A DNA stretch of 64,000 nt, taken from Paramacrobiotus metropolitanus (taxonomy: Eukaryota; Tardigrada; Eutardigrada; Parachela; Macrobiotidae). The notes beneath the pieces are model-generated. The model had not been told where the DNA came from, searched no databases, and was given only the letters and a program-made list of their open reading frames with translations. This document shows, piece by piece, positions 1,538-63,121 of the stretch (position 1 is the stretch's first letter; every line of letters begins with the position of its first letter). Position numbers and translations under genes: made by a program. Location: the NCBI RefSeq assembly GCF_019649055.1, contig NW_026570228.1:1550001-1614000 (forward strand), in the 5' to 3' direction.

Positions 1538-2751
1538 CCCAAGGTTTGGGCAGCTTATTTGGGGACCCATTTTCTAAATCGATCCGGGAAGGTCACTAAT
1601 AAAAATACGGTCGTTTGCTTGCGGTTACTTATACGTGGCGTCACTGGTTGTGTTCTGCAGACCGTCATAGCTAGCCTCCAGTTCCACCTGCTGTGCGGTC
1701 AGCCATTGCCGGATAAACGAGCTGACTACAGTCGGCTTCCGGTAGAATTATGGATGGAAGTGATTTCCCATTTGGACACACTGCAGCAGACGGCGCTGCG
1801 CGCCGTCTCGGCAGCATGGAACGACATCATCGTCTCGCAGAAATATTCGCTAACGGCCACGCTTAGCATAACCAGTCGGAAGGGTGGCACTCGTCGCCCG
1901 CGCTTCCTTCTCTCGGCGGTCATCTACAAATGTCTGCGCCCCCACACCCGAAACCTTCTCGTGGTTGACCGCCATAATTATTTTGATATGGAGGATATTC
2001 TGGCGATGCTGGGCATGATCAACTACATGGCGGAGCTGTATCCTGGGATCCGACTGCCGACGGTGTCTTTGAGGGGTATGACGCTGCGTCTGTGGATCCA
2101 CAGCGAGTCAGATTCCATCAACCGGGGAGTGTGTATGGTGGACCGGAGGAGTGGGTCCATGGCGGAGATTGGCCACCGGTATTGTCGCCTGCAGAATTTT
2201 GTGGGTGTTTGCCGAAGTCTGCCGGGTGACGTGCTCAGCATGACGAACTGCGACGTTGAGTTGTGTAGCCAGGAGATAAACCAGCAGATGTCTGTTTATC
2301 AATGAAATTTCCGGAAGCGCGGATCAGCCTGGAGGGCCGACGTTTCGGCTGCGCTCTGTGGGATGCGCTGGAGGCGGCGCTGGCTGTGCCGCCGGCGGCG
2401 CAGCTTGCCTGGTTGTCGCTGCATGTAGCTGGGCTGTCCCAGCCGCCGATAGAGCCGCCGATAGGTGAAAAAAGGGAGATCCTGTGGGTGTGCCAGGTAG
2501 AAATTTGTTCCAGGGAATTTTGTTCAGTTGTAAATAGTTTCCCGGCTTATAACGTTAACAACCGATGATAACCCTACCGATGAAAGTGAATTGACGTTGC
2601 TTTGCAGATAGTGAGTTCGGTGCAGACGGCAGATCCACGTCCGGGGTCGCATTACCACGGAAAAGAATGGTTCGAGGCTATCCTGGGAGATCTGCAGTTA
2701 GAGAAACTATCGCGCATGTCCCTGCATTTTCTCGCGCAAATTAGATCTTAA
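1538..2751 (+). CDS. F-box-type protein, frame-broken, 5' end unresolved
   Basis: An open frame runs from an acceptor-like AG at 1536-1537 to a TGA at 2303-2305. It contains an F-box-like segment near 1735-1830 (LPVELWMEVISHL, then a conserved tryptophan in SAAWNDI). F-box proteins recruit substrates to SCF ubiquitin ligases through Skp1. The coding signal continues in another frame from 2302 to 2496, then through a GT-AG intron (2497-2607) to a second exon 2608-2751 ending in TAA, in frame across the splice. The two halves overlap at ATGA (2302-2305) and differ by one base in phase. The likely reading is therefore one gene carrying a one-base indel, real or from assembly; two separate overlapping genes are less likely. 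No convincing ATG precedes the F-box, so a 5' exon is missing from this model. It is not closely similar to the F-box array at 17.5-25 kb. Confidence 0.55.
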
Positions 2752-3752
2752 AGCGCGCACACAAGGACGATGACATTGACAACATATGATGAATAAGGTC
2801 ACAACGCTCAACGATCGGTGAACAGTTTCATTTTTGTTGTGATTAACTTTTAACATGAGCTGGTTTGCATCATTTGTTAACAGTATTTATGTTTTTCATT
2901 TCTGAGCTTTGTTATGATAATTAATTATAATCCTGTAGTTACAATTTTAGATATTTCTTTGTACTTAGGAAGGAAGTACAGTAATTTGTAAGCTTCTCAG
3001 CAGCAGCGATCATTGCATTTCACTGGAATTTTCGAAGTTACGTAATTTGGAAATGTACAGTACAGTTGGAATTTTCTTCGTCAGTGACTTTTGTTGGAGG
3101 TACAACGAGAAAACGCGGCATCGGTGGCTGGTACAATGGAAGGAACGAAAAAGTTTAATGAGTGCAATGTTTAGCTTTGGTTTGTCTTCTTTGAGACCGC
3201 ATCGTTTTAAAACGAATAAAAACTAGTACAGTACTTAATGAGAACTCTTCTACAAGGTATTTAACTTCAATAAGTGTACACAGTAGTTCAGAGATGAATG
3301 AACTGGGTAATATCTATATATTAATTTTGCCTGTTGAACCATAATCGATTCCAGCGCATTATGTTCCGTTGTATACAATCAAGCTCCGCTACCAGAAATA
3401 CAAATTTTCGTAAAGCCTGAGTATCGCTTATAAGGCTTGCCTTTCACTAACTTTAATACCTGCTAGTCAGAAACCGAACATCAAAATCATAAAACAAACC
3501 CTTTAAAAACAATTAAACAAACGATTACAGAATATACACATCACGGTACGCGTATACATCACGCCTTAAACAGGAATCATTAAAAATCTGTAAAAACGGC
3601 CTACCAAAATAAAAACACGGAATCTCGACTAGGAAACCACCAGATCTCTCTTTTCCGCTTTAAACATGAACCGGGAAAACATTGCACAGATCTGGGCCGT
3701 TCAACCGGGGAACGAATACACCACAAAAGGAACGCATTCATAGGATACACAT
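2752..3752. other. Gene-free interval
   Basis: About 1 kb of AT-rich intergenic sequence between the convergent F-box gene and the SLC7 transporter, holding both 3' flanks. I see no coding, RNA or repeat signal. Confidence 0.5.
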
Positions 3753-17547: not shown

Positions 17548-19295
17548 CTAAACAGGATCACCGCACTGTACGAAGTTCTCGTCCGTCTCCCATGACACAC
17601 CCACCACTCCGCTCACCAGCGAACCGTCCATCTTTAAACCCTTGCAATCGAAATACTTCAGCGACGCTCGCAGCCCACCGGCATCCTTCAGCATCACTTT
17701 GTCGCACACTCGTCTAAACGCTTCATTTAAACGCACTCCACGGGATGCCGACCAACGCAGAATATCCTCATCCGCTACGACGAAATTCTTCAAAAAAATA
17801 ACCGAGATTTTCAAATTCATGGCCACGAGCATGGTGGGCAGGGTGCGCAGTGGGGCGGGGGTTGCGTTTCCGGTGACGAAGAGGATGTGCGTGGCACTGC
17901 TGACCATCTTGAGCATTAACTTGGCTAGCTTGATCTCGCCGCCGTCGATGCAGTCGATGACGCGGGACGATGCCGGCTGGGAGGATAAGGTGTCGTTCCA
18001 CAATTTACAGGCGCGACGCGAACGGAGGTTGTCCTCCGCGGTGAGATAATCGTTGAAAATGTAAATGAGGATGTCCGAGGGGATGCCGGTTATGGATAAT
18101 TCGGTGGACATTTCGAGTTTCACTTCCGGAGATTGTGATCTGGCGTTTTTGGACGGGGAAGTTGTCGACAGGAACATCCGGTGGCGAAGCTCGCGATCGG
18201 ATGCATCTATCCATTCCTTGATACGGCGCAGGTGGAGTTCCTAAAACATGGTAGAAAAATTCAATAAAAAATGCTAAACAAAATGCACGGGCGTCTTCTG
18301 TTTGCGGCTCCTGCCACTAATTTTATTTGTACTAAATACACTAAAAACTCTATAATTGACGTACGTAAAGTACCATACAGTAGTACCAGCAATATTACCC
18401 GTAGTACATAAAAACACACATAAAAATTAAGTATGAGTACTGTAATTACGAAAAAATACACCTATTCGCAATAAATCAGATACTAAGTAAAAACGACAAA
18501 GCAAACCATTCTTTTACGGTGTTTTTATCGCATTCCCATTAGTGGTTAGGAATAACTTAGGAAAAGATACAGAGAAAACACTTTCAAAGCAATTACGATT
18601 TTGAATTTTCGCAGAATTATTCTGTAAGTCATTTACGTTAACTTACGCAGTCAGACGTCTCCATAGGCTCATACTGCGCAGGCATATAATATACCAGCCA
18701 CTGATGCTCATCCTCATCGTCAAACCATCCGCCCAACGTCCCACTCTTGCGATTCCACAGCGGCCAGAACTCTTTCCGATACGTCACCACGCGCAAATCC
18801 TCATCGCGCGGCAGCATCACCCAGCATTTCTCAAAGGCTGGGTTCTTCTCCAGGGGGTACGGGGCGCGAAAGTGCGCAGGCGCGCCACACTGATCACCTC
18901 CCGTACCCCTGACCCCCCAAATTGTCCAACTCCACATAGGCGCACACTCGCGGATCGCCAGCCAGTACAGTCGCAGAATGCCAGCACCACGGATCCTGTG
19001 GGGAAGACTGATACAGCATCATGACACGACTGCCCATGGCGAACTGGGTATGGACGCATTCCAGGCAGCGTGCGATGGGGATGACGGTGGCGGGGTAGGG
19101 ATGGCCGCAGTTCAGTACGCACTGCAGACCTTCATCACGGGAGGGGATGACATCGGAGATGGTGGCATGGCGCAGCTGATCGTGGTCATCGATATAGTCA
19201 ACAGACCCGTAGCGCCACGGTCCAAACATGCTGGTGATCGGGCTGTGGGTACAGCGTGGTAAAGCGTGGCTGTCCTCGAGGATAGGCTTGACGCA
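17548..19295 (-). CDS. Tudor-like/F-box array copy 1
   Basis: Two main exons on the minus strand. Exon 18647-19295 encodes a domain of ~190 residues; exon 17548-18240 (231 codons) encodes an F-box (IPSDILIYIFNDYLTAEDNL, then RACKLWN) and a variable C-terminal region. The splice GACTGC|GTAAGT to AG|GAACTC is in phase, giving SDC-ELHLRRIKEW. The upstream domain contains GHPYPATVIPIARCLECVHT, VGSRVMMLYQSSPQDPW, ATVLAG and RKEFWPLWNRKSGTLGGWF; spacing resembles a Tudor/Agenet-type barrel, which is inference. Compared with copy 2, this exon has two extra bases around 18925 and lacks one base around 18857, so its frame is broken although the F-box exon is intact. An acceptor at 19296 implies an upstream exon. 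A short ATG exon at 19491-19514 (MAGDSSSS) would join in phase but is weakly supported. Convergent with SEC23. Confidence 0.6.
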
Positions 19296-20207: not shown

Positions 20208-22091
20208 TTACGAACCTGCTGTCTTCCCATCATCCACCACTCCGCTAACCAGCGAATCAACCACCAGTAAATCCTTGGGAATAAAATCACACTTCCAAGC
20301 CACATCCTCGAGGATCAATTTCCCACACACTCCTTTCCACGCTGCACTCAAACACAGCGCATCCGGATGCGAGACGTCCAGGATGTCCTCCGCCGCGACA
20401 CCGACCCGCTTCAACACAATAACCGGGATTTTCATACCCATGGCCGCGAGCATGGTGGGCAGGGTGCCCAGCGGAACGGGCGATCCTTGCCGGTGATCCG
20501 CAGGATGCGCGTGGCACTGGTGACCATCTTGAAGAGCAGCGTGGCCAATTTGAGCTCACCGCAGTCGGTACAGTCGATGTGGACACGGGACGATATTTGC
20601 GGGGAGGTCAGGATGTGGTTCCATAAGCGGCAGACGGGCCGCGAACGCAGATTGTCGTCAGCCGTCAGATAGTTGTGGAAGATGCGGATGAGTATTTCCG
20701 GGGTATGCTGGTTATGGGAGATGCGGAAGACGTTTCGGGAGTGAAGGGAGCGACGTCCGGAGACTGCAGATGGAGTTCGTTTAACGACGAAGACACCGAC
20801 ATGTACATCCGATGACGCAGCGAACGATCGGATACATCCAGCAGTTCCTTGACACAACGCAAGTGGTGTTCCTAAAAGACGGTAAAAAAATATTGCTTTA
20901 TACAGTGACTACAGGACCATAGGTGAATAGATCTAAAACAATCAATCCATTGCACACACAGCCAGTACTGAAGTACATACTATACTTACTTAACCTTGAC
21001 AGGCTTTTGTCAGCATTTTAATGATACAACACATTCAACACTGAATACATTTTTACCAGCTGACAGCAATCCACGATAATACAGTTATGTTTATTGTCCT
21101 TTGCTCGCAGCAGTTGCCCCCAAAGTAAATGATTTCACATAATCCATAATCTACTTATTAAAAGCTGCTACGTGATTATTTGCCGAATTATTTACTTTTG
21201 GTTTTTACAGAAAATAATCTAAAACACAAAAAATCAAGCAACGAAAATGCCGAGTGCGAAATTTTCCCATTTGCTTTGTATTTTTCTACATTGAAAATTT
21301 TTTAGTGCAATGAACGAAGTTTTTACACAGTATTTTTGCACCACGAAAAAGCAGAGAAAACTCACAAAACCTTTCAAAAAAATTTACGGGGTACAAGCCA
21401 CTGCATGGGTGAATACTCCGCTAAGCACAGATAATTTTAGAGTCGATAACTTACACACTCCGCACTTTTCATGCTCATATCCTCATTGTGCGCAGGTATA
21501 TAATAGATCAGCCAGGTATGATTCCCTCAAACCATCCGCCCATGGTCCCACTGGTGCGATTCCACAGCGGCCAGAACTCTTTCCTGTACGTCACATCGCA
21601 CAGATCCCCATCGTGCGGCATCGCCACCCAGCGGCGTACAAAGGCCTGTCGTTTCTCCAGGGGTGTGCGCGCTGCTGTGGTCCGTATACGCGCCACACTC
21701 ACCACCTCCCGCACCCGCTGCCCCGCCACGTCAATCTCCACCAAGGCGTACACCCGCAGATTGCCAGCCAGGACGGTGGCGGGATGCCAGCTCCAGGGAT
21801 CCTGCGGCGAAGACTGGTACAGTGTCATCACGCGACTACCTACGGTGAAATGGGTATGCACGCATTCCAGGCAGCGGGAGATGGAGATGACGGTATCGGG
21901 GTAGGGGTGGCCGAAATTCACTACGCACAGGATATCTGCATCGCGGCATGGGATGATATCGGAGATGAAGCCATGACGCAGCTGATTGTAGCCATCCATA
22001 ACGTCCACGGGCCCGTAGCGCCATAGTCCACACATGCCTGGGCGGCTGGGCCAGACGCAAACGCCTGTCCTAATCGCAGGTCATGGATGCT
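20208..22091 (-). pseudogene. Tudor-like/F-box array copy 2, multiply frame-broken
   Basis: Same architecture as copy 1: Tudor-like exon 21455-22091 and F-box exon 20208-20871. The Tudor-like exon is open for most of its length (GHPYPDTVISISRCLECVHT, VGSRVMTLYQSSPQDPWSW, VEIDVAGQRVREVVSVARIR, RKEFWPLWNRTSGTMGGWF) but loses a base near 21515, after which WLIYYIPAHNEDM continues in another frame to the donor at 21454. In the F-box exon a base is missing near 20702, just before PEILIRIFHNYLTADDN, and another near 20474, before the C-terminal MLAAMGMKIPVIVLK. A TGA also lies between the acceptor and the ATG at 22035 in that frame. Three frame breaks make this the most decayed copy. The splice junctions are still preserved, so loss is recent or the sequence has errors. 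Confidence 0.6.
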
Positions 22092-23087: not shown

Positions 23088-24807
23088 TTAAACGTTACAC
23101 AGGAACGGCACAGTTCGTAACGTACTCACGGTATTCGCATCACCCACCATGCCGCTAACCAGCGAATCCGCCATCTTTACATCCTGGTTCTTCACATTCC
23201 CCTTCCAACCCACACCCACCAGCATCAGTTTGCCGCACACACTCTGCCACAATGAATTTAAATATACCGCATCGGCGTGCGAGCAGTCCAGTATGTCCTC
23301 CATCATGATACAAACATTCTTCACGGAGATAACTGGAAGCTTCACCTTCATGGCGGCGAGCATGGCGGGGAGAGTGCGCAGTGGGGCGGGAAATCCATTT
23401 CCGGTGATATGCACAATGTGCGTGGCACTGGTGACCATCTTGAACAGCAGCGTGGCCAACTCAATCTCTCCGCAGTCGTCGGTACAGGCGATGTGGACAC
23501 GGGACGACGCTTGGCGGGAGGTCAGGACGTGGTTCCAGAATCGACAGACACGACGTGAACGGAGGTTATCGTCAGCCTTCAGATAATCGTTGAAGATGCA
23601 AATTGTTATTTCCGGAAGCACATCGATGATGTGAGGTTCGGATGGTATCCCGGGATGGGTGGGGGCTGGTTCGTCTGGCATACGGAGTGATTTCTGGATG
23701 GATTGCAAGTAGCCTTTCTAAAACACGATATAATGCACGAATAAAAAATGAAATATGTACAAGCCGTGATTACTTGTTGTCATTCTGCCACTCCTTTCGA
23801 AAATTTACTACGCATTTTATACTTCTAAAAGTATAATAACAACACATAATTATTTTACACGTAAGTATTTGACACATATGCATAAATTTATACGAGTACG
23901 AAATATTCGAGTTTGCCCACCATAAAAGAAAAAAGTACAACCCTGCGATTAAAAAAGAAAACATATCTCATAGCGCCGATGTGCTGTACAATAAGGTTCA
24001 TTCGTATACTCGTATTCTTTACTTCGATTCATAATTATCACAGTATTAACCAGACACTTCACAGTATTAATAATTAGCCAGACTGTTCATTTCCTGTTAC
24101 TTCCATGCAAGAAAAGAAGAAATACTTACTATTGTTGTATCTGCACGTACTTACACAACATTGAAAAATTTTTCATTTATTTTCATCGTCATCCCGCGCT
24201 GTTCTATAGTAATCCAGGCAATCACCCTGACACCCTGCACCAAGTGCCCCGCTTCTGCGATTCCACAGCGGCCAGAACTCATCCCTCTGTGTCACACCGC
24301 GCAAATCCCGATCCTCCGGTAACCTCACCCGTCCCTTCCTAAAGGCATGGCGTTCCTCCTGTGTGTGGACTGTCGTGGTCCGTACGCGGCCCGCACTCAC
24401 AACCTCCCGCACCCGCTGCCCAGCCACGTCAATCTCCACAAAGGCGTACACCCACGGATAGCCAGCCAGTACGGTGGCGGGATACCAGCTCCAGGGATCC
24501 TGCGGCGAAGGATGAAATAGCGTCATAACATGACTGCCAACCGTGAAATGGGTATGGATGCATTCCAGACAGCGTGCGATGGGGATAGATTCAGCGGGGT
24601 GGGGATGGCCGAAATTCACTACGCATTCCATCAATGCACCGCGGGCGGGGATGATATGGGAGATGATGGCATGCTGAAGCTGATCAGATTCGTCCAAGAA
24701 GTCCACGCACTCGTAGCGCCACAGTCCAAACAAGTTCGGGCAAAGTTCGAATTGATGGTCAACCTGTCTTGACTTGCACGGCTCTACAGAGTTTGTAAGA
24801 CTGTCAT
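23088..24807 (-). CDS. Tudor-like/F-box array copy 3
   Basis: The F-box exon 23088-23717 is fully open for 210 codons: KGYLQSIQKSLRMPDEP, then VLPEITICIFNDYLKADDN, RVCRFWN, and a C-terminal region ending at TAA. The Tudor-like exon 24155-24807 is open from the acceptor through LFGLWRYECVDFLDESDQ, FGHPHPAESIPIARCLECIH, VGSHVMTLFHPSPQDPWSWY and RDEFWPLWNRRSGALGAG. It then reaches TGA at 24173-24175, 18 bases before the conserved GTAAGT donor at 24154. Either the domain exon now makes its own ~210-residue protein, or the F-box exon is spliced from an alternative donor, or the copy is decaying. An ATG at 24817 lies in frame 10 bases above the acceptor-like AG. XPA starts about 500 bp above on the other strand. 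Confidence 0.6.
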
Positions 24808-46798: not shown

Positions 46799-47404
46799 AT
46801 GTACAAACAGCAGCCCCGCGATGTGCGGAAACTCTACTTTCAGGAAGCCCAAATTGAACATGACCGGATCATCAGTCGTGCCTGGCAGAGTAAATACGGC
46901 CGCCTACTGGACGAGCAAACCGAGCGTATCGGCACGGTGAACGTGGTGAAACCCGGATGGTGGAAGGAAGCTGACTACAATATCTCCGACAGCGCCAAGA
47001 TCGCCCGCGACATTACCGTTCTCCTCCCGCGTATCAACTACCCGCCCCGGGTGCGCCGCTTCCCGCCGCACCAGCCCCCGGGACCGGAGGTCACGGAGCA
47101 TATCCCGCCGTTGTCCCTGCAGTACCCGGTGCCGGCGACGGAAAAAGCGCCACTGACTGAATACCACGGCCGATTTCAATATTTGAAAAATCGCTGGGCG
47201 TTGCCGATGAATCAGCGTTTTATCGTTCCACCCAACGTCAACGGGGAATATGGTTGGGAGAATGCCGGGCAGGCCGGGAAGTCACATGAGGAGACTCCCA
47301 AGAATTTCGGTGTGCGGCCGGTGCTCGCCAGGGAGTTCTACCGGCAGACGGGTGTTGTTAATCATAAAGAAAGCAAAGTCAAACTTGACCTTAGTGCACG
47401 ATAA
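46799..47404 (+). CDS. Unidentified 201-residue protein
   Basis: A single open exon with strong coding character: MYKQQPRDVRKLYFQEAQIE, then a proline-rich centre (RINYPPRVRRFPPHQPPGP), GRFQYLKNRWALPMNQRF and a C-terminal NFGVRPVLAREFYRQTGV. The protein is rich in Pro, Arg and Tyr, with no signal peptide, membrane span or coiled coil. Short, aromatic, low-complexity proteins of this kind occur among axonemal microtubule inner proteins, and the C-terminal block is reminiscent of them; that is a weak inference. I cannot name a family with confidence. Confidence 0.75.
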   Translation: MYKQQPRDVRKLYFQEAQIEHDRIISRAWQSKYGRLLDEQTERIGTVNVVKPGWWKEADYNISDSAKIARDITVLLPRINYPPRVRRFPPHQPPGPEVTEHIPPLSLQYPVPATEKAPLTEYHGRFQYLKNRWALPMNQRFIVPPNVNGEYGWENAGQAGKSHEETPKNFGVRPVLAREFYRQTGVVNHKESKVKLDLSAR

Positions 47405-47526
47405 CCGTTGCTAGTAAACCGCTTCTGAACGTATACTTATATATTCAGTTTTTGATGCTCTAGCAGCTTATGACTATGTACATAACATCCAGTATCCGGT
47501 TATGTGCAGCGTTACGTTAAATCTCC

Positions 47527-47992
47527 CGTTACGTGTAGCGCTCACAAACCACACTGAAACTGAAATCCGTAATGCGCTCGTAAAAGGCAACAGCTGCACA
47601 ATGCTCTAATCCGGCAATGGGTCGTGTGCGGCATATATGTAATCTTATCGCTCAGGAAAAAAACAATACAAAGTAAAAAGGTCAGCTCAAAAAATGCACA
47701 ACGAAAGCAGATTCCCCAGTGTCCGTCGTAAAACAAATCGCCAGTAGCCAGATCCAGAGGTACACAGAATGCTCCGATGCCAGTGACCGACAAAAAAATG
47801 GAAAAATACAAGCGCTAAACGGAACATATCGTCCTTTTTTGATTTGCGAAGCCTCCCGACCCTAGTTCTCATTCATTCATATATCAAGAGCAGACAACCC
47901 GGTTAACGGGACTTCAACGTCTGGTCGCCTGCAAATATCACGGCGTTAAAAACACCGATTTTCAACCAGCCTTTCTTATTATCACCACATAA
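47527..47992. repeat. Segmental repeat, copy A
   Basis: Matches copy B at 48916-49382. Shared segments include ACCACACTGAAACTGAAATC, CAACGAAAGCAGATTC, CAGAGGTACACAGAATGCT, CCAGTGACCGACAAAAAAA and CGCCTGCAAATATCAC, in the same order. This copy has a ~45-bp insertion near 47875-47925 and a frame break relative to B. No terminal repeats are visible. Confidence 0.85.
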
Positions 47993-48915
47993 AAACTACA
48001 ATTCAACAAAATTATAAAATCACAATTATAAAACTAATATAAATTCAATTCAATTTAATTACTGGGTTAATATATTCAATTCAGTGAATAATATACGAGA
48101 AAAAGTTCAGTAAGTAATATAAAATAAATGATAATATAGTAATAAACAATAATATAATAACAATATAATATGGATTTTCCTAGTATGGATTACGTATACA
48201 CTCACCACGTGAGATGGGGAAACTCATTGTCAGCCGGAGCTGTTATTGTTGTGCTTTATTTTGCATAATAAAATTAATATATGTTCCAAAATAAAACAAT
48301 CATTTGCACTAACTATAAATATTTATCAAATTTTTCTAAACATTTCCTTTGTTTACGAAAATCAACAACTCCCATTACGTTTAAGCTGATGGCTTATTAT
48401 TTTTACGAGCACTTAGTGTAACAGCCAGTGCACTACAAAACACCATGAACATACCAGCCGTTTTACACCTAGCTTCACAGAGCGTGATATGCATCATACG
48501 CTTCAGTGGTAACGAGGAAATGTGTGACATAAAATTGACATAAAATATAATTGTCATAAAAAATTGTCTAATTACCTGCTCACCAAGTTTACGGAAATAA
48601 GAACGTTTAATACAGCAAAATCATTATGCATCGATTCTGATCGTTAATGTGCATGTAAGTATTACTTATGGAAACGAAACAGCCAGTACAGAATGCAATT
48701 ATCGGATTATTACAACTGCCAAACTGATTACTGTCATTTTATTTCCCTGGTACAATCGGAATGAGGTTTTTTCATTTTTATATATAATTTTCTGTATAAC
48801 AAATGCTGTCAAAATACTAAACAGGAAAATACCGGTATCGTACAACAGCTGGCGCATACAAATTCCCTGTAACGGGAACCATCCCCGCATTCCCAAGCCT
48901 TAACTCCAACAAGCA
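47993..48915. other. Unique sequence between repeat copies
   Basis: Very AT-rich, with runs of AATATAAT near 48050-48170. No gene seen. Confidence 0.5.
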
Positions 48916-49382
48916 CACCCGCAACGTGCAGCGCTCACACAACCACACTGAAACTGAAATCCGTAACAAAACGCGAGTAACAGCCACAATGGTCTATCCC
49001 GCAATGGGACGTGTGCGCGCGCACACAACCCTGCCGTTCAGGAAAAAAAACAATGTACAAAGTAAAAAGGTCAGAACAAAAAATGTACAACGAAAGCAGA
49101 TTCGCCGGTGTCCGCCGTAAAAACAAATCGCCAGTGGTTCAGTCCAGAGGTACACAGAATGCTTCGATGCCAGTGACCGACAAAAAAAATGGAAAAATAC
49201 AAGCGATGATGAAGCGTCTGCTAAACGGGACATATTGTCCTTCTGATTTGATTTACGAAGCCTCCCGACGCCAGTTCTCATCGGTATTCTTCCGCCTGCA
49301 AATATCACAGGGTCAGAAAAAACCGGTTTTCAACAACTGAGCAATTTCAACCAGTCTAGTCCTTTGCTGTCACTACGTGAAA
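48916..49382. repeat. Segmental repeat, copy B
   Basis: Copy of 47527-47992 about 1.39 kb away. Here a plus-strand frame stays open from ATG 49053 to TGA 49338 (MYKVKRSEQKMYNESRFAGV and onward to QISQGQKKPVFNN). In copy A the same frame is broken by a one-base loss and a TAG. B could therefore be a small gene with A its pseudogene, or both could be members of an interspersed repeat family. Confidence 0.8.
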
Positions 49383-49704
49383 ATCTAAATCTGACATTGT
49401 TCAATTCAAAAAATAATATATTGTTGAACAATATTAACGTTATTGCCGAACTTTATAGAAAAAATCAGTTTAATGCCGGGAACTGCAAACCGAATCATTA
49501 TGCGCTAAAAGCATGATTCCATAAAAAGCCCTCAAGAAATTAAAAAAATCGGGAATTTGTTACGTACGCAAAACCAGCGTATAATTATAATTTCATACCT
49601 ACTGCAAAAGTTAAAAAAAATTTACAAAACGCGTAAATTACCAGGAACATACAAGCGTCACAATGTATACATTACGAAAATATTAAATTCAATAATATTC
49701 ACGC

Positions 49705-52700
49705 TTACTGCGACGTCAGCGGCTTCAGCGACCCGCTACCACGCGCCCACGTCCGCTCGCCTGGACCCAGCGTCACCGGCGGAGATTCCGGTCCCGCATC
49801 GCTGTCCCGCTCCACCTAGACACAAATAAAACTTAAAACTTATGAAAATTTTTTAAAAAATTTTTAATATCACGTAGTAAGACCGCGTACGCATTGTGCG
49901 TTATTCATTCAAGGATTGCTTTTAAAACAAGCATTTTCTATCTCATTTCACGTTGCATTTACCAGCATCCAACTTACACTAAGTGCAGTGAGGAACTTTT
50001 TGGTCTTGGCATTGGCGGCTGGCTGCTGGCGCATGCGATGTCCATCCCCGGCCGCGGCCGCCGTCGGCTCCGATACGGAGTAGGACGAGCGGAAATGCGG
50101 CTGCCGGATAAATCCCGGCTGGCCCTGGCCGGCGGGATGTTGAGGATGGAAATGCGGACGTGTGTTCTCGTTAACCGGCCCGTTGCGCGGTATGTCGAAA
50201 CGCTGGAAGGGATGTCCGAGGTAGTCGCGAGCGGCGTGCTTACTGGGCGACTGCGCGAGATGCTGCGACGAATCACCGGCGTCGGTACGCGATGGGAGGA
50301 TGATGTGTCGGGGCGCCGGAGCGAATTTCTGTTTAACAATAATACAAAAACTTAATAATACAAAAACTTAAAAACCTTATTCTGAACTATGTAGATGTAA
50401 GAGAACTAGATGTAACAGCACCAAAATAACAACGTTAATTACTGGAATTGAATGCCCACACACTACGATTTCGCCATATTTCCACTTTCATGACCACTAG
50501 AGCAGCCAAGCATGTGAACGAAGCGTACGTAGTCCATTGCACGACATGATAACCAAAAACATTTTCGTATAACAGAATTTCAACGCCAACAATTTCTGTC
50601 TTCCAAATTTTTCAAAATAGATTTGCACGATTACAGAACAAACAGCATTACAACGAAATAAAGGCCAAATTTCAAGCAATTCCTTTGAAAATTTTCCAGG
50701 TGCCGTGCATAAAGACAAGAATTTTTAAATAATTCTCACGCAAAAACAAAAACCATGAACACAATAACGACCGCCACTGACCTCGAAATGGGACCGCCCA
50801 TGACCTTCCCCGATAATCATGGGCAGCACGGGACTAGTGCTCTCCAGCAGGCGTTTCGCGCCCATCTCACTCCCCACCGCCGACTCCGAGACATACCGCG
50901 GCCGCTTTCCGCCGCCCTCCCGTTCCTCCTTCCGGACACCCTCCTTCTTAATCACGTCACTCAGCAGCGCCACCAGGCGGGGCTGGGCGCCGTGCGCGCG
51001 CACCCGCTGCTCAATGGCCAGCAGCACCTCTCGGGTGTACGTGACACGCCGCGGGGCCTTCTCGCTGTCCACCTGCGAAAGCGGGCGGATCAGACGATCC
51101 CGGACGGTCTCCGCCGGCCGCACAAAGGCTGGTGGACGGGCGTGGAGGTCACCGGGGGTCAGGGATTTGCGCGGGAGGGGCGCACTGCCGTCGGCCGGCA
51201 GATGGCAGAACCGGTGGAAGCCGTCCAGGAATTTGGCGGCGTGCGGCTCCCCGGCTTTCCCCAGGATGGTCTCCAGGCCGCGAAGGGTCTCCGTGGACTT
51301 GTCGATCATTTCCAGGCAAGTGTAGATCAGGAAGGTCGCACAGTCGTAGATGTTCGGCCAGTCGACCGTCAACTGCGCGATATCCGCGGTGATTTTCTTC
51401 GCACTACAAAAACAAACTCAGTAACTACCGACAAAATGTACGGTATATATAAAACATCTTCTATGTGTTTGTTCTATTTTCGGAATTATTCCTTAAAATT
51501 ATTCTAGATTCATTTCACTGAAAATTATCAATAATAATTTTCATCTTGTTCGATTTATTTTCTTATAACGACGGTATTCTACCAAAAATGACCTTATAAA
51601 ATCATGAACAAACTGCACGAATCTTCGCCTCTCGTTAATCTCTTTCTGAGTAAGAAGCTTTGCCTCCCAACTTCAACTAATTTCTGATCGTGGTAGTGAT
51701 TAATTTCCTATTCAAAATATAATGATGTACAATAGCTAAGTTTCTAAGAACGTAGCCCCGTGATTTTGCGCAGTGGCTAAATGTGGCTTTCATGCGAGGA
51801 ATTCAAACGATAATAAAAGTTCAACAGCAACACCGCTCATAAATCGACAAGCATACCTCAGAAAAGTAGGTTAGCGGTTTAACGAGCAGTCAACTATCCC
51901 GTAAATAGTAGCAGTTGAATAACGAGCAATTAAAATTTATCTGTTTATGTCGCCAGCAACAACCACCGACACCAGCACACACTGCACAGTCAAACCATTT
52001 CACTAATATTGTAAATTTTTTAATAGCTTAATGGGAAAATTATCAATGTCATTGCAAAAGCCGGCGCATTCCTTGAAATATCTTGCAATAAAAGTAGCAG
52101 ATTACTTATTAAATGTTGATCCCGCAGGCTGTACCGGAGAACGTTTGTGCCGCTCAAGGGAACATTTATCATTCATTGGTAACTTGTTATCATGCGGTAT
52201 CGGCTATGAAGGTCAAATTTGTATCAAATTATATTGCAACACCGTCACCTTTCCATCAATTTTTAATAATGACAATATAAAGAAATAAAATTAATGACAC
52301 AATTCTCAACTTTATTTTAACATTTATTTTAGCATCTGAAAAGTTATTTTGAACTATGCAGTTTCTTTTAATTAGTCAGTAACAGTTGAACAGAATTAAC
52401 AACAACTATAATTATTTCCAAACCGCAAAAACTAGAATAAGCTTTCAACAATTTACAAATCCTCAACTGTAAAAAAGACGATCAAGTCGGAATCAAAGGC
52501 GAATAGTCAACGTTCTATTTAAATTACAACGTTACAAGTTACAACTTAAAATATTCAAAACGAATACAAGTAAAACGTTTTAAATTTTTCTGCAGTATTA
52601 TTCGTTATTCTTTATACCAATTTACATCTTATTTTTGTTTACAAATTTTTTTCTTAATCACGAAACCGCGCTTGCAATTTTATTAAGTATTTGTTTCGAT

Positions 52701-53245
52701 GGCTGTTGTCTACAAAAGTGCCTTACTAAAATTCTTAAATAACCAGATGTGTTCAAGAAAATTGAAAAGTCACATAAGCATACCTTTGGAAAAAGTGTGT
52801 CTTGGCCAGGACATTCTTCTTGGACAGCTCCTTAATCAGCAGAATGATCTTGGGCTGATCCTCACGGCGGGCCTCACAGTACATAATGATCAGGTGCGTA
52901 ATGAATTCCGCCCGCTCCGCAGCGGTAAAGGTCGACATGGCCCGTGCCACATGCTGCACGGCATCCTGCACAAGCGAGGAATTGAATCGATATGTTGATT
53001 CGATAAAACGAACCATCATACTCCACAACGCCTACACAGTTACACAAGCCGCAGCTTACCGCAATCTCCGAGCCATCGGAATTGGTCAGGACGCCGACGA
53101 GTTTTTCCACTTGCCGGCCGAAGGCGTCTGGGTCAGGACTAGGAGTGGTGTCGGGTTTGGGCGACGTGGCAGCCGGCGGACTGGGTGACGGTTTATCCAC
53201 CAGCATCGTATCCGAGGTAGGAGATTCCGGGGCGATATTCTCCAT
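49705..53245 (-). CDS. eIF4G-like protein with MA3-like region then eIF4E-binding motif
   Basis: Five exons: 53060-53245, 52784-52965, 50782-51403, 49978-50328 and 49705-49815; all phases agree, 483 residues, ending PLTSQ-TAA. The N-terminus (MENIAPESPTSD) is Ser/Pro-rich. Residues ~40-190 form a helical region resembling MA3 (FITHLIIMYCEARREDQPKI, LLIKELSKKNVLAKTHFF, then DIAQLTVDWPNIYDCATFL). Residues ~243-280 (TYTREVLLAIEQR ... LLSDVIKK) align with the eIF4E-binding segment of the neighbouring eIF4G (TYSRDMLLSLEQR ... KLSEIIKQ), with the Y-x4-L-L motif at 51019-51039. The C-terminal third is low-complexity (His, Pro, Gln, Ser). No MIF4G domain is seen. It probably binds eIF4E at the cap and competes with or modulates eIF4G. 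The last exon pair is supported by open frame and splice sites only. An AG before the start ATG leaves a 5' exon possible. Confidence 0.8.
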
Positions 53246-56200
53246 GTCCTGACCGGCTACATATACACAAAGTCATCATTAACAAATGACAGTATTTATC
53301 GGAAATTATTCATGCCGTTGAACTGAACCTTTATCCCGATGTAAACTAACTACCCACCGAAATTTTACAGAAAAACAATAATTTCCTGTATCTCTTATAA
53401 AAAATCAACCAAGGGACCGCGAATACCGGTTCCTTAAAATTTACTGTAGGCACAACACCGACAATGATAATACATAGGTATAAAATTATAAGACCGTAAG
53501 CAATCACTTAACGAAACATTACGGTATTCTCAATTTTCAATTAATGCAGCCATAAATTATTACAAAACATTTTCTAATCACATTCAATTACATGAAAATG
53601 TGTTCCAGTTGGACAGTACCGAACGCCGAATTAAATCGATAAAATTTATCTCGAATTTATCCCGTATACTGCAGTCCTAGATGGCGCTTTGGTGAATGTG
53701 AGAAAAATCGAAAAATGTTTAAACTCTTCCGAAAAAAATTCTCACTTCAGGATTACTCTACTATCCACACTACATATACGAATTACCAAACGTACCTTGC
53801 AAGAATAAAGCAAAAGCGTATTTTAAATGTAAAGCGGTAAAAAAATTCAACCGAAAAATTCAGGAAGAAAATCGGAAATTTAAATTTGAGCTGTTGAAAT
53901 AAAACCCTGGAAAGGCCAACACACAGTTCACAGAAGACAGATACTGCCGAATGTTATTGCCAACTAACTACCAAACGGATATCGCCGATAACATTGGCGG
54001 ATGTATAATTATTCCAGCAAGCGTACGAGGTATCAGCGATAATAGTAATCCAGGGACACATTTTCACCAAACTGCCTGCATACTACGAAGCACAATAGCC
54101 CTGCACTGACCTCACCTGATCGCTGTTATTACCAGTAATAATAATCCGATAACCGGATAATGCCGATACAAATGAACACCAGCTAAAAATGAGCAATACG
54201 TTGCGGGCGGGTATTTATACGCTTTGCAACAACTGTATGGTCACGTTTTTCCTGATCCAAAAATTCCACTGGCAGAATTATATTTCCTAACCAGTACAAA
54301 TCGCGTGACAGCGTATGAAATGCGCCGCGATTGTTTTCCGGATAAAAACGTTTTGGAACGCGACCAACATTTGATAAACAAGCCAAATTTCGACAAACAT
54401 CCGTTAGGCAATTACGCTATCACTTTTGCATCAGCCACGTCTAACCACTCCGGTAATGCATTTTTTTTTGTTTCAATATTCTTAAAATTTTAAAAAAAAC
54501 CTTTAACAGTTACATTTGTAAAACCGATATTGCATTCTAATCGAACTAAATCAAGAATTTCGAATGAAAACGACCGTGAAAACTAAATACCGCGATTATG
54601 AGGAATACCCTGTACAGGCACCCTTAACACTGCATTATATTACAGGCTTTGTAGAGTATGAGCGTTATTTTATTCTTACCTAGGACGCCGTTCGCGTCCA
54701 TGGAGCAGCGCCGACAAATTCCTTCCTGCAAAGATCATTTTTGAATTGCAAGCATCCCACACACTAAATCCTTGAAAAAAATCATTTACGGCAGTCATAT
54801 CGCGCAGGGGATGTCCGCAGGTCTGCAGCATGAAGGGCATTGTGTGGCTTTGGATTGGGTTACAACGTGGAAGCACCGTTCAAAAATCCGCACTGTTTCC
54901 CTCTGGCAAAGGCAGGACTGCCAAACCGTCGAGCACCACACTGTTTTCTTTGGAGATAAAGAAAGAAAGACTAGGTTTTGTTTGATGGAGGGGAGCTGAC
55001 CTAGAATCCAGGAGATTTCTGGAGACTGCACTCTTTATGCGCTGTCAGCAACATGCATTCAGATCACAGATGCCTCAGACTGGTTTTGCAGTGTTTTGGT
55101 TAGAATATTATGCAGGCAGGCACCAGGCAGGCAGGGCTTTTTGATGAGTCTGTCTGCTGCTCTTACTCGAGTAGGCCTTCCTTTTCTTCTCGCTTGCCAG
55201 TCTGTGCTAATGCACGGCTCTGTCTGTTTCCTATCCGATGTCGATCAGTCACACAAAGAATCGATTTACGAGTCAGGCTCAGTCAGCTGACAGAAAGTCA
55301 TCACAAGGTGAAGTCGAGGTGACGCCACGTCCCAAGCGGGCATCAGAACTGGCGTAACCGATTTCGTTACGTGACTTGTGAATGGCTCAATAGTGCCATA
55401 TGGAACTTATAAATTCTTAATCAATATTAATGTGCTTTGTATTTGTTCTTTGTATTAGTAATAGCATAAAACACAGTAGTTAAAACAATTTTTCAATCCC
55501 TTCCCCGCTATAAATACAAAAGAACCATTTACTTACTAAAAATTTTAGTGGGTTTAGAATAATTTTTCGTCATAATTATATTGACCAGAAACCTGATAGA
55601 ACATTGGTGGAAATGGTGTGTTTCTCGCCACTACACCACAGAACTCATACGTGAATGTCATATGAACCATGATACTACGATAAAAACCCACAAATTTTGG
55701 TTGAAAAATTATGGAAAGAAATAATGTGCTTCTTACCTTTTTGATGTTTATGTTACATAAATATTTATATCGAATTATACGAGTATTATAATTCCTATTT
55801 GTGAAGAAACTGGCAAGACAACAGGATCGAACTAAACCACTTCATTCATAAACGCACAAAATTATATCCGCAAGAAACAAAGAGTGAACATCCATCCAAG
55901 AAGCCAAAAGCAACACGAAGTGTTTTCGTTCATTTTTTCGTTAATTTAATTTCCCGGGCAGAGAAGAGGAAAAAAAGGGACAACGCGACATCAACCACAC
56001 GAAAAAAAGAAAACACAGAGAGAGACATCCGCCGCAACAAACCAGCACAACCCCCGACACCAAACCACAAACGGAGCCATCCATCAGCTCATCCCGGGAA
56101 GACGAAAACAGCACAATCGGGCCGTGTGGGTGCCAAGATGATGGGCGACTCTCAATCCTCCAATCATATTGCCGGCATCCAGACGCGCGGTCCATCCCGT

Positions 56201-57091: not shown

Positions 57092-60000
57092 CTATGAAGA
57101 GCCCAGAATTTTCTGGCCAACAACCGGGTCCCGGTTAATCATTTCTTCCTTCTGCTCTGGTGACAGGCGCGCATCGAGCCATTTGCGGAAAGCACCGTGG
57201 TATTTGGGGATATGAGCGGGAGATTTACTCAGGACACTGTCCAAGGCCGCCAAACTGAGGAGGTTGTCCGCCAGCAGCGGCCCAATCAGGTCCGCAGTAT
57301 AGGCGTACATTTCCGGCACATCCACCGCGATGTCATCCGCTGCCTCCACAATTTGGCCCATGCTACAAACAAAACATCCATGATGTCAGTGCTGTATCGC
57401 CAGCGATTCAGTTTGAATTAAATGAATCGTCTTCGATTATCAACACTATTCAACAGTAAGATAACTTTCACAAAACGCTCACCAACTGCGAACTGCTCAA
57501 CAAATCAAATTTTCATCCCTGAATAAAGTCAATAAACCAACTTCCACAGCTATAATTTTAAAACACTTTTAAATACTTTTTGATTTTCTAACATTTTTCT
57601 AACGAAGAAATTAAGAAAACTATGTAATTGTTCTCAAATCTATCACCACAGAAATATAACTTACCCATCTGTCAGGACATCTTGCGAAAAGAGTCCTTCC
57701 CGCGCCATCCCCGATAAAAACTCCACATACTTCTCCCGATCGCGTGACTTGGCTTCAAATGACTTCTCCATAACGCTTTTTATAAACGACGCCTTCGTCG
57801 GACCCGTCCAGCGTCGTAGAATTCTCACAGAATCTAAAATCACCTCCTACAACAACACAAACGTCAATCCCCATTAACAACAACCGCTCAAACTAAACAG
57901 TCCCAGACAAACTTCGATTTTACCCGACTCTCTTCGCCATCCAAATTCGTGGCCTGCGTCAGCATCACATTGGCCTTCTCGGTCACGGCGTCCGCGTCCA
58001 GCTCCTGGTCTTCCTGCACCGGTGAGCCACGGGACGGAGTGCCGGCCATCTGGCTGGGTGTGGCCGTACCCGATGCCAGCGGGGTGGCGGAGCGCTCCAC
58101 GGAGGTATCCTCCGGGAACGTCGGGGTGTGAGTCAGGGAACCGCGCGGATTCATGCGGTTCACGCTCGACTCGCGACTGGAAGAGGCCGATTTATTCTCG
58201 GGCAACCTGCCACAGATATAGACATAAACAACTTGCAAATAATTAATTTCCCTATTTATTTATGTTCACCCAACGTTACTTGTAGAAATATTACAGAAAT
58301 AATATGATACATACGAAAATCGAATTCAGTAACGTAGTGCAGTAATAAAAGTACTGCAGTATCGCAGTAAACAGTGACTTTCATGAAATTCACCTAAAAC
58401 CGATTTGAAATGAAATTTACCCTATTAAAATATATTCTATCCCACGGTGGGATTCCTACCGGTAAATACGATAAAATAATATTATTAACAGCAAAAGAAA
58501 TAAGACAGCGGATTGCAATGGAATGATACTAAAATAAAGAAGCTCACGAAAAAACGACTAAGTTACCCACAAAATAGAGAAAATAACATCAGCATATCAG
58601 AACCAACCTGGCCGTGCTGGCGCTGCCTCTCATGCCCAAACCGCCTCCGCTTCCGGCGCCCCAGGAAGGCCGCCCAGTACCCAGCCCACCCTGGGGGCCC
58701 AGCATGGTCGTGTGGCCATGTGATGGATCGGCCTAAGAGAAAAAAATCGGTAACTCAAATGAAATATATGCTTTAACAATATGTACACTCAACAGCAACG
58801 ATACAGAATCCATATGCAGAGACTCTCAAAATTCCATCACACTACGGAAATTGTTCCATGTCATGTTGTCACACTGACCAAGTGATTTAACTACCTGTAT
58901 GATCCATTCACTTACCAATAATCCCAACACTTTCCGCTTCCCACCGTCCATCATGGGCTGCACCGCGGGACGTCCACCATGGCGCGGCGGCTGCCCGCCG
59001 CCCATGGAGGACAGCGCATGCGGCACCGAGCTGGGCTTGGTCAAGCCGCGTCCGCTCTGCGGCATCAGACCGCCGCGGCCCATGGCCATCCCGCCGCGGG
59101 TAGGCATCTGCTGACGGGGCGGCATCAGAATCGCCGCATCCGCCACCGCCTGCTTAATCTCCTGTTCTTCCTTCTGTTTGGCGGCGTGCACCTCCTTAAT
59201 GGTGGTCGGTTTGGCCGTGGTGGTCTTGCGCGGAACGTAATTGTTGTTCTTCAAGTCAATGGTGTCTTCCATCAGGAAGCGGATACGCGATGAGGTGACT
59301 TTGGCGTCGATCATCTTGCGCAGCTGCTGGAAAAACACATCCACCGTATTCTGCAAAGTGCAAACACACCGGTCAACCAGCAAATATGGTTACATACGTT
59401 TTAGTGTCAACGTTTACCTGTTCCTTAATTTTAACTGCGCAAGTCTGTAGTAGCTTGCACAGACATTCCACTTTATCTTCATCGACATCTTCGAACGTTT
59501 TGCTCTTGGGAAGCAGCTTTTGGAAGCAGCTAAGGATTACTCTGTCGGTCAACATCTCCACCTTGTACAGCTCGGATATAAACCTTCAAACACACGTGAA
59601 ATACATTATCCCCTGTCAAAATCTATAATTAATAATAAAATATATGAAATAATTAAACCAATTAATTATTAATTAATGAATTAATTTAATTTTTAATGAA
59701 TTAACCTAACTAATTAAACTAAAAAAAATATTTATTCGTTAGCAAAGACATACCGAATGTTGCCGAGGTAATGGCGTTTGGCCCGGCCGCGTTTCTCCTG
59801 CAGTGCTTCCGGATCATCCTCGCTCTTATCCTCCTCTGCTTCATTCTCTTCCCTTTCCGTCTTCTCAAAATAGTTCTGCGACTGTCGCAATACCACGGTA
59901 CGGAATTTCACCGGCTGACCGGAGGCATCTTTAGCTTCCACGTGGATCAGATCGCGGCACATCATGGCGTAGAATTCCGCGTAGGTAATTTCTTCCAGCG

Positions 60001-63000
60001 CCTAAACATCATCAACAAACTCTCCTATTACTTATTGTCACAAACTTTCCATACTTCAAGTATTGTAGGGTTGCAATTCAAACGGTTTTCGGGCCGTTTT
60101 CGAAATTATTTAAAATAAAACAAAATGTGAAAATAAAAAAATTAATATGCATTTTTAAAGCTTATTCTAGAATATTTTTCGGTTGTGAACAAAGATGCGA
60201 GTACTGAGTGACAGATCAAATGTTACGTTATTTTCAACAGCCATTTCCTTGTGCTTTATCGAATTTGTCTATTTCTTCCATCTAAGATTACTTAAAGAAA
60301 TAAACAATTACGTTTTCATTTCAAATCTTTGAAACCTCGCTTGATTTAAAAAAGATTTGATTGAAATATGAAATGTGACACGTTTGTAACTAACCCCAAT
60401 ATTACTAAACACCATTCATAACCACTGATGGTTCATATCGTACTTTATCAAAAATCAGTCCCACGGTGGAACCCAGTCGTTCCGCTGTTTCATTGAACGG
60501 CATTCGCTTCATATCTTCGATCAATTTCCCATAATTACTCGGTGTAATTTTGTTAAGGAGAGCGCGCACATCCAGGAGGACTTTCTGGAATACCATGACA
60601 CTGTATAAAATTCCCGGTTAAAAAAAAAGCTGGAAGACCTAGCGCACCTCATTTTCGTCGAGGTTCTCCTTCTTCTTATTCATCGGCTTCCAAGCGTTTT
60701 CGTTGGTAGGAATGATCGCTTCGGTCTGCAGCTGCAGATGGATGACTTGCTGCCCCCCTCGCGGTGTCGACGTGCCCGGTATCCGCTGCTGATGACCACC
60801 TCCGCCGCCTGGACCACCACGCGAAGGCTGTCGGCCATACATTTCCGGCTGCAAACAAAAACAGACACTGCAATACAATCAAGAATAATACAGACACATA
60901 AACGTGCCGATTTGCAGTTAGCCATGACAGCGATTTTCAGTGTATCATCGTATCATCCTGAATTTCGAAAAATCCTACCTTCACACTAAAATTTCTAAAA
61001 ATAAACCTATATGAGCTTTAAAAAATCATTTAATCCAACAAACATATAAATAGCGGGATCTGTATAAATCAAAAAAAGATTTATTAAACATAATAAATAA
61101 ATTGATGCATAACAGACTATTAAGAACTATAACAATTAAACAGATAAACAAATAAATAAGTAGGTAAACAACAAATAAATAAAGACCAACAAATAAATAA
61201 GTAATAAATGGACAACTCATAAATACATGCAATGAATTTGCAAACCAAACATTCATTACACAAAATGGCGAAAGTACTTACGCGATTGCCGCCACCGGGT
61301 GTGCCCTGCTTAATGATCTCACTGAGCTTCAGCGCCACTTCCTGGGAGAAGGTATGGTGGCCGCGCTGTTCCAGCGACAGGAGCATATCGCGGCTGTAGG
61401 TCTTGCGCACCGCCGACGGATCATTGACGGAATGTCGGCGCTGATGCTCCTCCTTGGTCCCGTTCTCCGTCGGCGACTGGGCACCATCCTGGAAGCGATC
61501 ATCCGGCTCCTCCACAATCTTCACCTCCTCGACGGCGGCGGGGGCCGGCGGTTGCGGCGGCTGGGGGGAGGTCTGGGAAGGCACGACGGGCGGGGAAGCG
61601 GCAGCTGCGGGTGAGGCCTCCCGCAGGGTGGCCGGGCTGGTGATGCGCATCTCCATCTTCTCGGGAGGAGGAGGGAGTTGAGTGGCAACCGGGCGGACCG
61701 GGGCGACGACCTCCATCTCCATCTTGTCGCTCTTCTCGGGTGAGGAGCGCACTTCGGTCTTCGTCTCCACGGGTATGCTGGGCTTACGCTCACCTACAAA
61801 TCCAACTTTGCAATCAAGTCATTATAAAAAACGCTATCCCTATAATTATTATTGTGATTTTTTAATACTGTTCATCTTATGAATTTGACAGTTATTACAT
61901 GCATGTTTTTTATGGTGCCTTTTGTATCATCCCACAGTTCAAACATTAGAATAAAAAACTATTAATATTTCACATTTTTAGTTGCTTCTATCGTTCACCG
62001 ATAGTTTCAATGCTAGAACGAAGTAATACTAAAAGAATATCTAAATATTCTGAGCGCACTCAGCGCAGTAGAAGTAATGAAAAGCAATTATTTTAAAACA
62101 AGCGTTTAAGTGTGTTCGATTGCATGGGTAAAAATGCTCCGTGCTCACGCAGTTTCAAGAAAAGTATTCTGAAGTGAGCATTAAAAATCTGAATGTTTAC
62201 CGAGCACGGCTTCACCGGGTGCCGCTTGGCTGCTCAACTTTCGGCTTCCTTCCGTAGGAACTCCATTCTGGCCACCTGCAAAATGATCAACATGAACACA
62301 CAGTGTTTAATGGACATCCATACACATCCAGCGGGATGTTCATACCAATTTCGGACGACACGGACAAGGCCGGCGACGCTCTACTGGACGTTGTGGACAC
62401 CTCCTTGGACGTTCCGGCGGTGTGCCGAGTGAGTTCGGCCACCTTCCTCTGAAACTCATTCTTAACTTCCTCCGCGGCCGCCGTACTTTCCGATTCCGAC
62501 AACTACAACCGACACACTTACGAATAACATCCCTGAACCACAGAAGTCCTTAATTTGGACGTACCCTCGGCCCGGAACTGTCCCGCGACACAGTGGACGC
62601 CGGAGGCGCGGCAGCCGCTGGCACCACCGGCGCGACCGCTTTAGCCTTGGCCTCGGCTTCGGTTTTCTGCGGGATGTCCACCGTCTGATTCGTATCGGGA
62701 TTAACAAAGACCAGGACGTTCTTCTTGCGTTCCGTGGGGGCGGGGACGGGGACCGCCTTGGGCTGATGGGCCGTCTGGGCGGCGTACTCCTCCGCGGTCA
62801 GCAGCCGGTCATTGTAATAGCGTCTCTGCTCCGCGCCGCTGGCATCTGCCGGCTTCGGCCCGGCCGGAGCGGCCACCATCCCCCCGGGAGCGGGTCCGGC
62901 GTGGGCGGGGTTCGGTGGGGGCGCCCCTTGGGGTCCGGGACCGGGTTGCTGTTGGAAGGACGCTGGACAAGAAGAAATACATCAATTTTACAAAAACCAA

Positions 63001-63121
63001 ACAATTAAATAAAATTCCTACCGTTCGGCACGCCCACATTCTGCGGAACCATCCCGGGCATCACCTGCTGATTGGCGCCCTGCGGCATCATCATCGGCTG
63101 GTTTCCGGGGTAGAAGGCCGG
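57092..63121 (-). CDS. EIF4G: Translation initiation factor eIF4G, 5' end unresolved
   Basis: Fourteen exons read, 63022-63121, 62565-62962, 62346-62502, 62201-62275, 61282-61793, 60648-60848, 60411-60584, 59754-60001, 59418-59583, 58916-59350, 58608-58732, 57924-58206, 57665-57846 and 57092-57362, giving at least 1,108 residues in one frame. eIF4G is the scaffold of the eIF4F cap-binding complex. In order: a Pro/Gln/Met-rich N-terminus; RKKNVLVFVNPDTNQTVD; a long Pro/Ala linker; the eIF4E-binding motif Y-x4-L-L in TYSRDMLLSLEQR (about 61378-61398); ENAWKP before the MIF4G domain (KVLLDVRALLNKITPSNYGK, KRHYLGNIRFISELYKVEML, KVTSSRIRFLMEDTIDLKNN), which binds eIF4A; Arg/Gly-rich spacers; and an MA3 domain (KANVMLTQATNLDGEESR onward to RKWLDARLSPEQKEEM). 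It ends at TAG right after MA3, with no W2 domain. N-terminal exons upstream were not found. Confidence 0.93.

Follow-up and report, generated by a model that had tools for sequence, protein, structure and literature searches.

The window, by which we mean the whole 64,000-nucleotide stretch of DNA analysed here, carries beside its eIF4G gene a second gene that appears to encode eIF4G-type elements in permuted order. We hold with moderate confidence, for the reading taken as a whole, that this permuted gene is a separate and intact-looking protein-coding gene, that it is an old relative of eIF4G, that it codes for an MA3 domain followed by an eIF4E-binding segment with MIF4G missing, and that its product acts as a competitor or decoy.

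A six-exon gene beside eIF4G

The permuted gene occupies positions 49705-54701 on the minus strand of the window and starts 2.4 kb downstream of the eIF4G stop codon on the same strand (Table 1). Its six exons form a single frame of 494 codons; every intron is of the GT-AG type, the joins are in frame and a stop codon closes the frame. The initial annotation had proposed a protein of 483 residues from five exons. This protein matches the frame as read from the second ATG, in exon 2, and all five exons do join in frame; however, a small 5' exon (54701-54680) that was absent from that model joins too and adds 11 residues to the front of the protein. For this exon of 22 nucleotides the true frame is not the best of the six, and since neither homology nor codon bias was found in its support, a start at the exon 2 ATG is possible.

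Codon usage in the permuted gene fits a coding gene. The codon score of the true frame is 0.177, as compared to 0.049 +/- 0.025 for a null that keeps the same protein and matches third-position bases. When the exons are scored singly, the true frame ranks first among the six in exons 2, 3, 4 and 6 and is about level with one antisense frame in exon 5 (0.084 and 0.096, respectively). The GC content is 0.54-0.70 in the exons and 0.30-0.45 in the introns.

Table 1. Positions of the permuted gene, its predicted elements and the neighbouring eIF4G gene in the window
Feature	Position	Strand	Remarks
Permuted gene, exon 1	54680..54701	-	22 nt; MDANGVLA; ATG; donor gtaag; joins exon 2 in frame
Permuted gene, exon 2	53060..53256	-	Low-complexity N-terminus and MA3 start; GT-AG; phase 1 in, 0 out
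Permuted gene, exon 3	52784..52965	-	182 nt; MA3 first half; phase 0 in, 2 out
Permuted gene, exon 4	50782..51403	-	MA3 second half, linker, eIF4E-binding segment
Permuted gene, exon 5	49978..50328	-	Low-complexity tail; no homology shown
Permuted gene, exon 6 and stop codon	49705..49815	-	In-frame join
MA3 domain	51202..53134	-	Residues 49-201, spliced over exons 2-4; profile 28.3 bits
Predicted canonical eIF4E-binding motif YTREVLL	51019..51039	-	Residues 256-262
Putative non-canonical eIF4E-binding part PRLVALLSDVIKKEGV	50935..50982	-	Residues 275-290; aligns with eIF4G VALKLSEIIKQG
eIF4G gene	57092..63121	-	Codes for 4E site, MIF4G and MA3; 14 modelled exons within the window
eIF4G 4E site YSRDMLL	61398-61378	-	Neighbouring eIF4G gene
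eIF4G exon 13	57846-57665	-	182 nt; phase 0 in, 2 out

The likely first exon of the neighbouring eIF4G gene lies beyond the window, where an open frame with an ATG was recognized by eye at positions 213-773 of locus L034 (C8:1614001-1620000). At its other end the eIF4G model stops directly after MA3 and leaves no room for a W2 domain. A direct repeat of roughly 400 bp is found downstream of the permuted gene's stop codon, its two copies (47547-47952 and 48941-49319) being 84-100% alike in blocks and 1.37-1.41 kb apart. Several further open frames of the window (1538-2302, 17551-18240, 20435-20908 and 23091-23717) look F-box-like by eye.

MA3 domain, eIF4E-binding segment and missing MIF4G

Judged by its sequence, the MA3 domain of the permuted protein is real, and it is old and divergent. 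When five eIF4G-type MA3 domains of the same genome, the permuted one excluded, are combined into a profile, this scores 28.3 bits on residues 49-201 as compared to 2.4 bits for the best of 1000 shuffles, and a profile of the two MA3 domains of the genome's PDCD4 scores 22.0 bits as compared to 2.8 bits in shuffles. The CWC22 and NOM1 rows used in the MA3 profile work are rough hand joins with gaps and were left out of the tree discussed below. Pfam MA3 matches residues 91-152 with an E value of 2.4e-4 and 21.5 bits, just missing the curated cut-off of 23.2. BLAST aligns the domain with that of the neighbouring eIF4G at E 2e-8 when uncorrected and unmasked and at 2.7e-5 with composition correction and masking, and the score of the alignment to eIF4G was reached by none of 1000 shuffles. 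Both Pfam and the profile find one MA3 in the protein. Structure prediction for exon 4 alone was uninformative (mean pLDDT 38.9), and a sequence search of solved structures with the whole permuted protein returned two matches, neither of them relevant (best E 0.22).

The segment which follows contains the canonical YxxxxL-phi motif in the form of YTREVLL, and the stretch RVTYTREVLLAIEQR...LLSDVIKKEG aligns with RKTYSRDMLLSLEQR...KLSEIIKQG of the neighbouring eIF4G, the part that pairs LLSDVIKK with KLSEIIKQ being a short alignment. The loose motif alone is weak evidence, as 561 of 5000 shuffles contain it; none of the 5000 has the stricter pattern Y[ST]R[DE]xL-phi. A profile of two eIF4G-type segments of the genome (from C8, the contig of the window, and C161) gives the permuted segment 13.7 bits (E 0.013 within the set searched) as compared to 7.1 bits for the best of 5000 shuffles. 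In BLAST the region matches eIF4G at E 4e-5 uncorrected and unmasked and at 0.004 with composition correction and masking, and none of 1000 shuffles attained the score of the segment's alignment to eIF4G. The Pfam families of eIF4E-binding proteins have no match in the permuted protein at E up to 1. A genome search with the 4E segment of the neighbour found C8 eIF4G and C161 only and missed the permuted gene, and a sequence search of solved structures with the same segment gave two matches, none relevant (best E 0.37). On C7 there is a weak 4E-like match (L023, E 0.80).

MIF4G was found by neither approach. Pfam reports MA3 as the sole domain of the permuted protein at E up to 1, and when the neighbour's eIF4G is run by tblastn on positions 47400-55600, no match to MIF4G falls below E 0.76. 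The eIF4E site stands after MA3 (residues 256-262 and 49-201, respectively) and not before it. On these points the initial annotation holds: it had placed an MA3-like region first, had aligned the eIF4E-binding segment with the neighbour as quoted above, and had described the order as reversed relative to eIF4G and MIF4G as absent.

The remaining parts of the protein were compared with eIF4G in the same manner. The linker (residues 202-248) and the N-terminus are unrelated to eIF4G, their scores being reached by 633 and 222 of 1000 shuffles, respectively, and the kinship of residues 291-341 is doubtful (26 of 1000). The score of the tail encoded by exons 5 and 6 was reached by 17 of 1000 shuffles against all of eIF4G and by 4 of 2000 against eIF4G residues 700-860, a region picked after the match had been seen, and the tail and the eIF4G linker share a same-phase intron within one codon. 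Homology of the tail to the eIF4G linker was nevertheless rejected, as a five-member linker profile at default settings ranks the tail behind 640 of 2949 listed sequences and, without composition correction, behind 813, the sequences ahead all being the tail's own shuffles.

Proposed function and known eIF4E and eIF4A regulators

Because an eIF4E site is present and MIF4G is missing, so that translation would not be started, the permuted protein is most likely an eIF4E competitor or decoy which may also hold eIF4A. Its binding segment would dock on eIF4E as that of eIF4G does and hence exclude eIF4G, and the cap complex so bound would, lacking MIF4G, be unable to recruit the ribosome. Competition with eIF4G by means of canonical and non-canonical motifs is described for the 4E-BPs in PMC8558276 and PMC4164784, the former of which also states that non-canonical motifs are in general poorly conserved. 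The genome has its own 4E-BP-like gene (C34) and 4E-T-like gene (C48), and therefore the permuted gene is no stand-in for a missing brake; it also has eIF4E genes, with 10 exon matches that all exceed the cut-off and are spread over five contigs.

The MA3 domain would serve as a second handle, most simply for eIF4A, if weakened, or else for another initiation factor. According to PMC3850090, eIF4G holds eIF4A at two sites, the required one in MIF4G and a second, regulatory one in MA3, while PDCD4 blocks eIF4A through its MA3 domains, its eIF4A-binding part. Alanine at E249, D253, D414 and D418 of PDCD4 abolishes eIF4A binding, as reported in PMC4176178. We placed these residues, an acidic pair before a conserved proline in each domain, by alignments to solved PDCD4. 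The counterpart of D253/D418 is kept in the permuted protein (D148), whereas that of E249/D414 is a glutamine (Q144) and the acid is lost; the neighbouring eIF4G has D at both positions. Since MA3 itself binds eIF4A and one of the two key acids is retained, the suggestion of the initial annotation that the protein would act without recruiting eIF4A is unsupported. Binding of eIF4A is possible and, with the other key acid lost, perhaps weakened.

A further step, which we put forward tentatively and consider doubtful as it stands, would be a bivalent translation brake that unites 4E-BP and PDCD4 in one chain, with eIF4E taken from eIF4G and eIF4A held by MA3; such a protein would derive from a permuted eIF4G duplicate and would be one of several regulators from an expanded eIF4G family. 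If eIF4E and eIF4A were indeed both bound, two brakes which are separate proteins in other animals would be joined.

What appears to be new in the permuted protein is its domain order; the kind of protein is already known. It resembles eIF4G in that its MA3 has the introns of the neighbour and its eIF4E-binding segment is of the eIF4G type, yet its order is reversed and it lacks MIF4G as well as the long N-terminus. With the 4E-BPs and other eIF4E-interacting proteins (Thor, CUP and 4E-T) it shares an eIF4E site without MIF4G, so that competition is expected, but differs from them by its MA3 and the eIF4G type of its motif. Like PDCD4 it has an MA3 in principle able to take eIF4A, the middle of which resembles the C-terminal MA3 of PDCD4; PDCD4 however has two such domains as opposed to the one found here, and the permuted protein adds an eIF4E site and has Q in place of one acid. 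Mextli, too, carries a HEAT-type domain ahead of its 4E site, in an architecture of MIF4G and KH. The permuted protein differs from it in having MA3 and, by Pfam at E up to 1, neither MIF4G nor KH. The small Arabidopsis gene MAT4 (At4g30680), which consists largely of an eIFiso4G-like MA3, has this domain in common with the permuted gene, but no eIF4E site is described for it in the available part of PMC3850090. In titles and abstract openings of the open-access literature we found no protein that combines MA3 and an eIF4E site without MIF4G.

The presence of both predicted binding modules would also suit a positive scaffold, that is, a reduced, MIF4G-free eIF4F-like platform which would link eIF4E to eIF4A for selected mRNAs, much as Mextli, itself no eIF4G, promotes translation in flies. 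Mextli is listed in PMC8558276 among the eIF4E-binding proteins of flies and worms, and a title cited in PMC7358283 names it as an eIF4E-binding protein that promotes translation. We nevertheless regard such a scaffold as rather unlikely, given that neither Pfam nor tblastn finds MIF4G and that one eIF4A contact residue is lost. Should the protein instead be a competitor or decoy, as we prefer, it would show how, right next to the parent gene, an initiation scaffold gives rise to its own competitor through the loss of its core and the permutation of its docking sites.

Origin of the gene and its genomic setting

The permuted gene is probably related to eIF4G through an old local duplication. 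Its two MA3 introns agree in place and phase with those of the neighbouring eIF4G, and its exon 3 equals eIF4G exon 13 in length and in both intron phases, with 9 of 60 residues identical. Anchored at the introns, the two proteins align without gaps over 85 residues, 25 of them from exon 2, with 17 identities and a score of 71 as compared to 18 for the best of 20000 shuffles. Over the MA3 stretch 49-206 the local z is 16.4 for the neighbour (eIF4G_C8), 13.1 for the C7b copy and 9.5 for the C-terminal MA3 of PDCD4 (PDCD4c), and in the N-terminal half of the domain eIF4G reaches 4.9 (eIF4G_C8) and 3.9 as opposed to 1.7, and at most 1.8, for PDCD4.

Then again, a PDCD4-like MA3 might have been fused to an eIF4G-type eIF4E site without duplication of a whole eIF4G. 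In the second half of the domain PDCD4c and PDCD4m (z 3.6 and 3.4) precede the neighbour (2.6), and over an 82-residue core the genome's own PDCD4c scores 65 (z 10.6) and human PDCD4c has a z of 8.4, whereas the neighbour scores 38 (z 6.5) and human eIF4G1, whose MA3 core barely resembles the permuted one, scores 16 (z 1.5). An eight-row MA3 tree groups the permuted MA3 with PDCD4 (88/95), on long branches and with no fork at starred support. The evidence on the source of the domain is therefore two-sided: the tree and the domain middle lean towards PDCD4, while the introns, the N-terminal part and the domain taken as a whole point to eIF4G. We consider the fusion unlikely: eIF4G_C8 is ahead over the whole stretch and in the N-terminal half, and both MA3 domains of the genome's PDCD4 lie within one 349-codon open frame without the introns common to the permuted gene and eIF4G, even though PDCD4 may have lost introns. 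Because the MA3 middle is nearer to PDCD4c, an eIF4G source is likely but not certain. The evidence fits best with an old eIF4G duplicate which predates the copies on C7 and C72 and has kept ancestral features of MA3. Of the proposal of the initial annotation that the gene arose by duplication and shuffling of its neighbour, the kinship with eIF4G thus stands, on the shared introns and the whole-stretch score, with the MA3 core and the tree leaning the other way.

Could the permuted exons instead be alternative 3' exons of eIF4G? Splicing from eIF4G exon 12 to permuted exon 3 would give eIF4G an isoform that has a different MA3 and gains an additional eIF4E site at its C-terminus; the phases match (exon 12 phase 0 out, exon 3 phase 0 in), and the two are on the same strand with about 5 kb between them. 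Such a phase match is however already expected from duplication alone, and the permuted gene has an exon 2 of its own with the MA3 start, an in-frame ATG and coding bias, which makes this arrangement quite improbable. Least of all do we expect a functionless, decaying remnant of the eIF4G expansion: eIF4G-like pieces abound in the genome, but at 9/60 identity to eIF4G exon 13 the frame of 494 codons is still free of stops and frameshifts and has kept its coding bias.

The genome searches cover one eukaryote genome, the 169.8-Mb one that holds the window. A query of 767 residues from the neighbouring eIF4G protein gave 65 exon matches at E up to 1 (on C8 itself, in a C7 cluster at 933-977 kb, and on C72, C73, C161, C234, C353, C35 and C46), including a weak PDCD4 match (E 0.04) and a further C8 match around 1620 kb (E 0.24). 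The MA3 family search missed both C8 genes and the 4E-segment search missed the permuted gene, so that all genome counts are lower bounds. In this expansion MIF4G and MA3 exons recur both in tandem and at scattered sites, and some of the C7 pieces (C7:933000-976600; L023-L026 read to 968000) share 90-95% identity with the eIF4G of the window. Here and there an eIF4G-like MIF4G comes after a diverged one, which would suggest proteins with two MIF4G domains. Given the many other eIF4G-like pieces, the permuted gene is one peculiarity within a wide expansion of the family, which makes the genome a good place for studying the diversification of translation factors.

A genome search found no second copy of the permuted gene, only five self matches and two weak ones. 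The C14 match (E 0.006, residues 9-101) contains an internal stop and was rejected as a copy, being by eye another kind of protein; against eIF4G this locus gives nothing better than E 0.22. The other weak match (E 3.2) is PDCD4. A lipocalin search of the genome, aimed at the SAHS proteins of tardigrades, gave 4 matches, one of them under the cut-off, and none was accepted as SAHS. Finally, locus L037 (C35:165500-171500), which has no eIF4G MIF4G match within the 6 kb read, carries at 2861-3440 a strongly diverged eIF4G-type MA3 in two open frames, with R at the position of PDCD4 D418.
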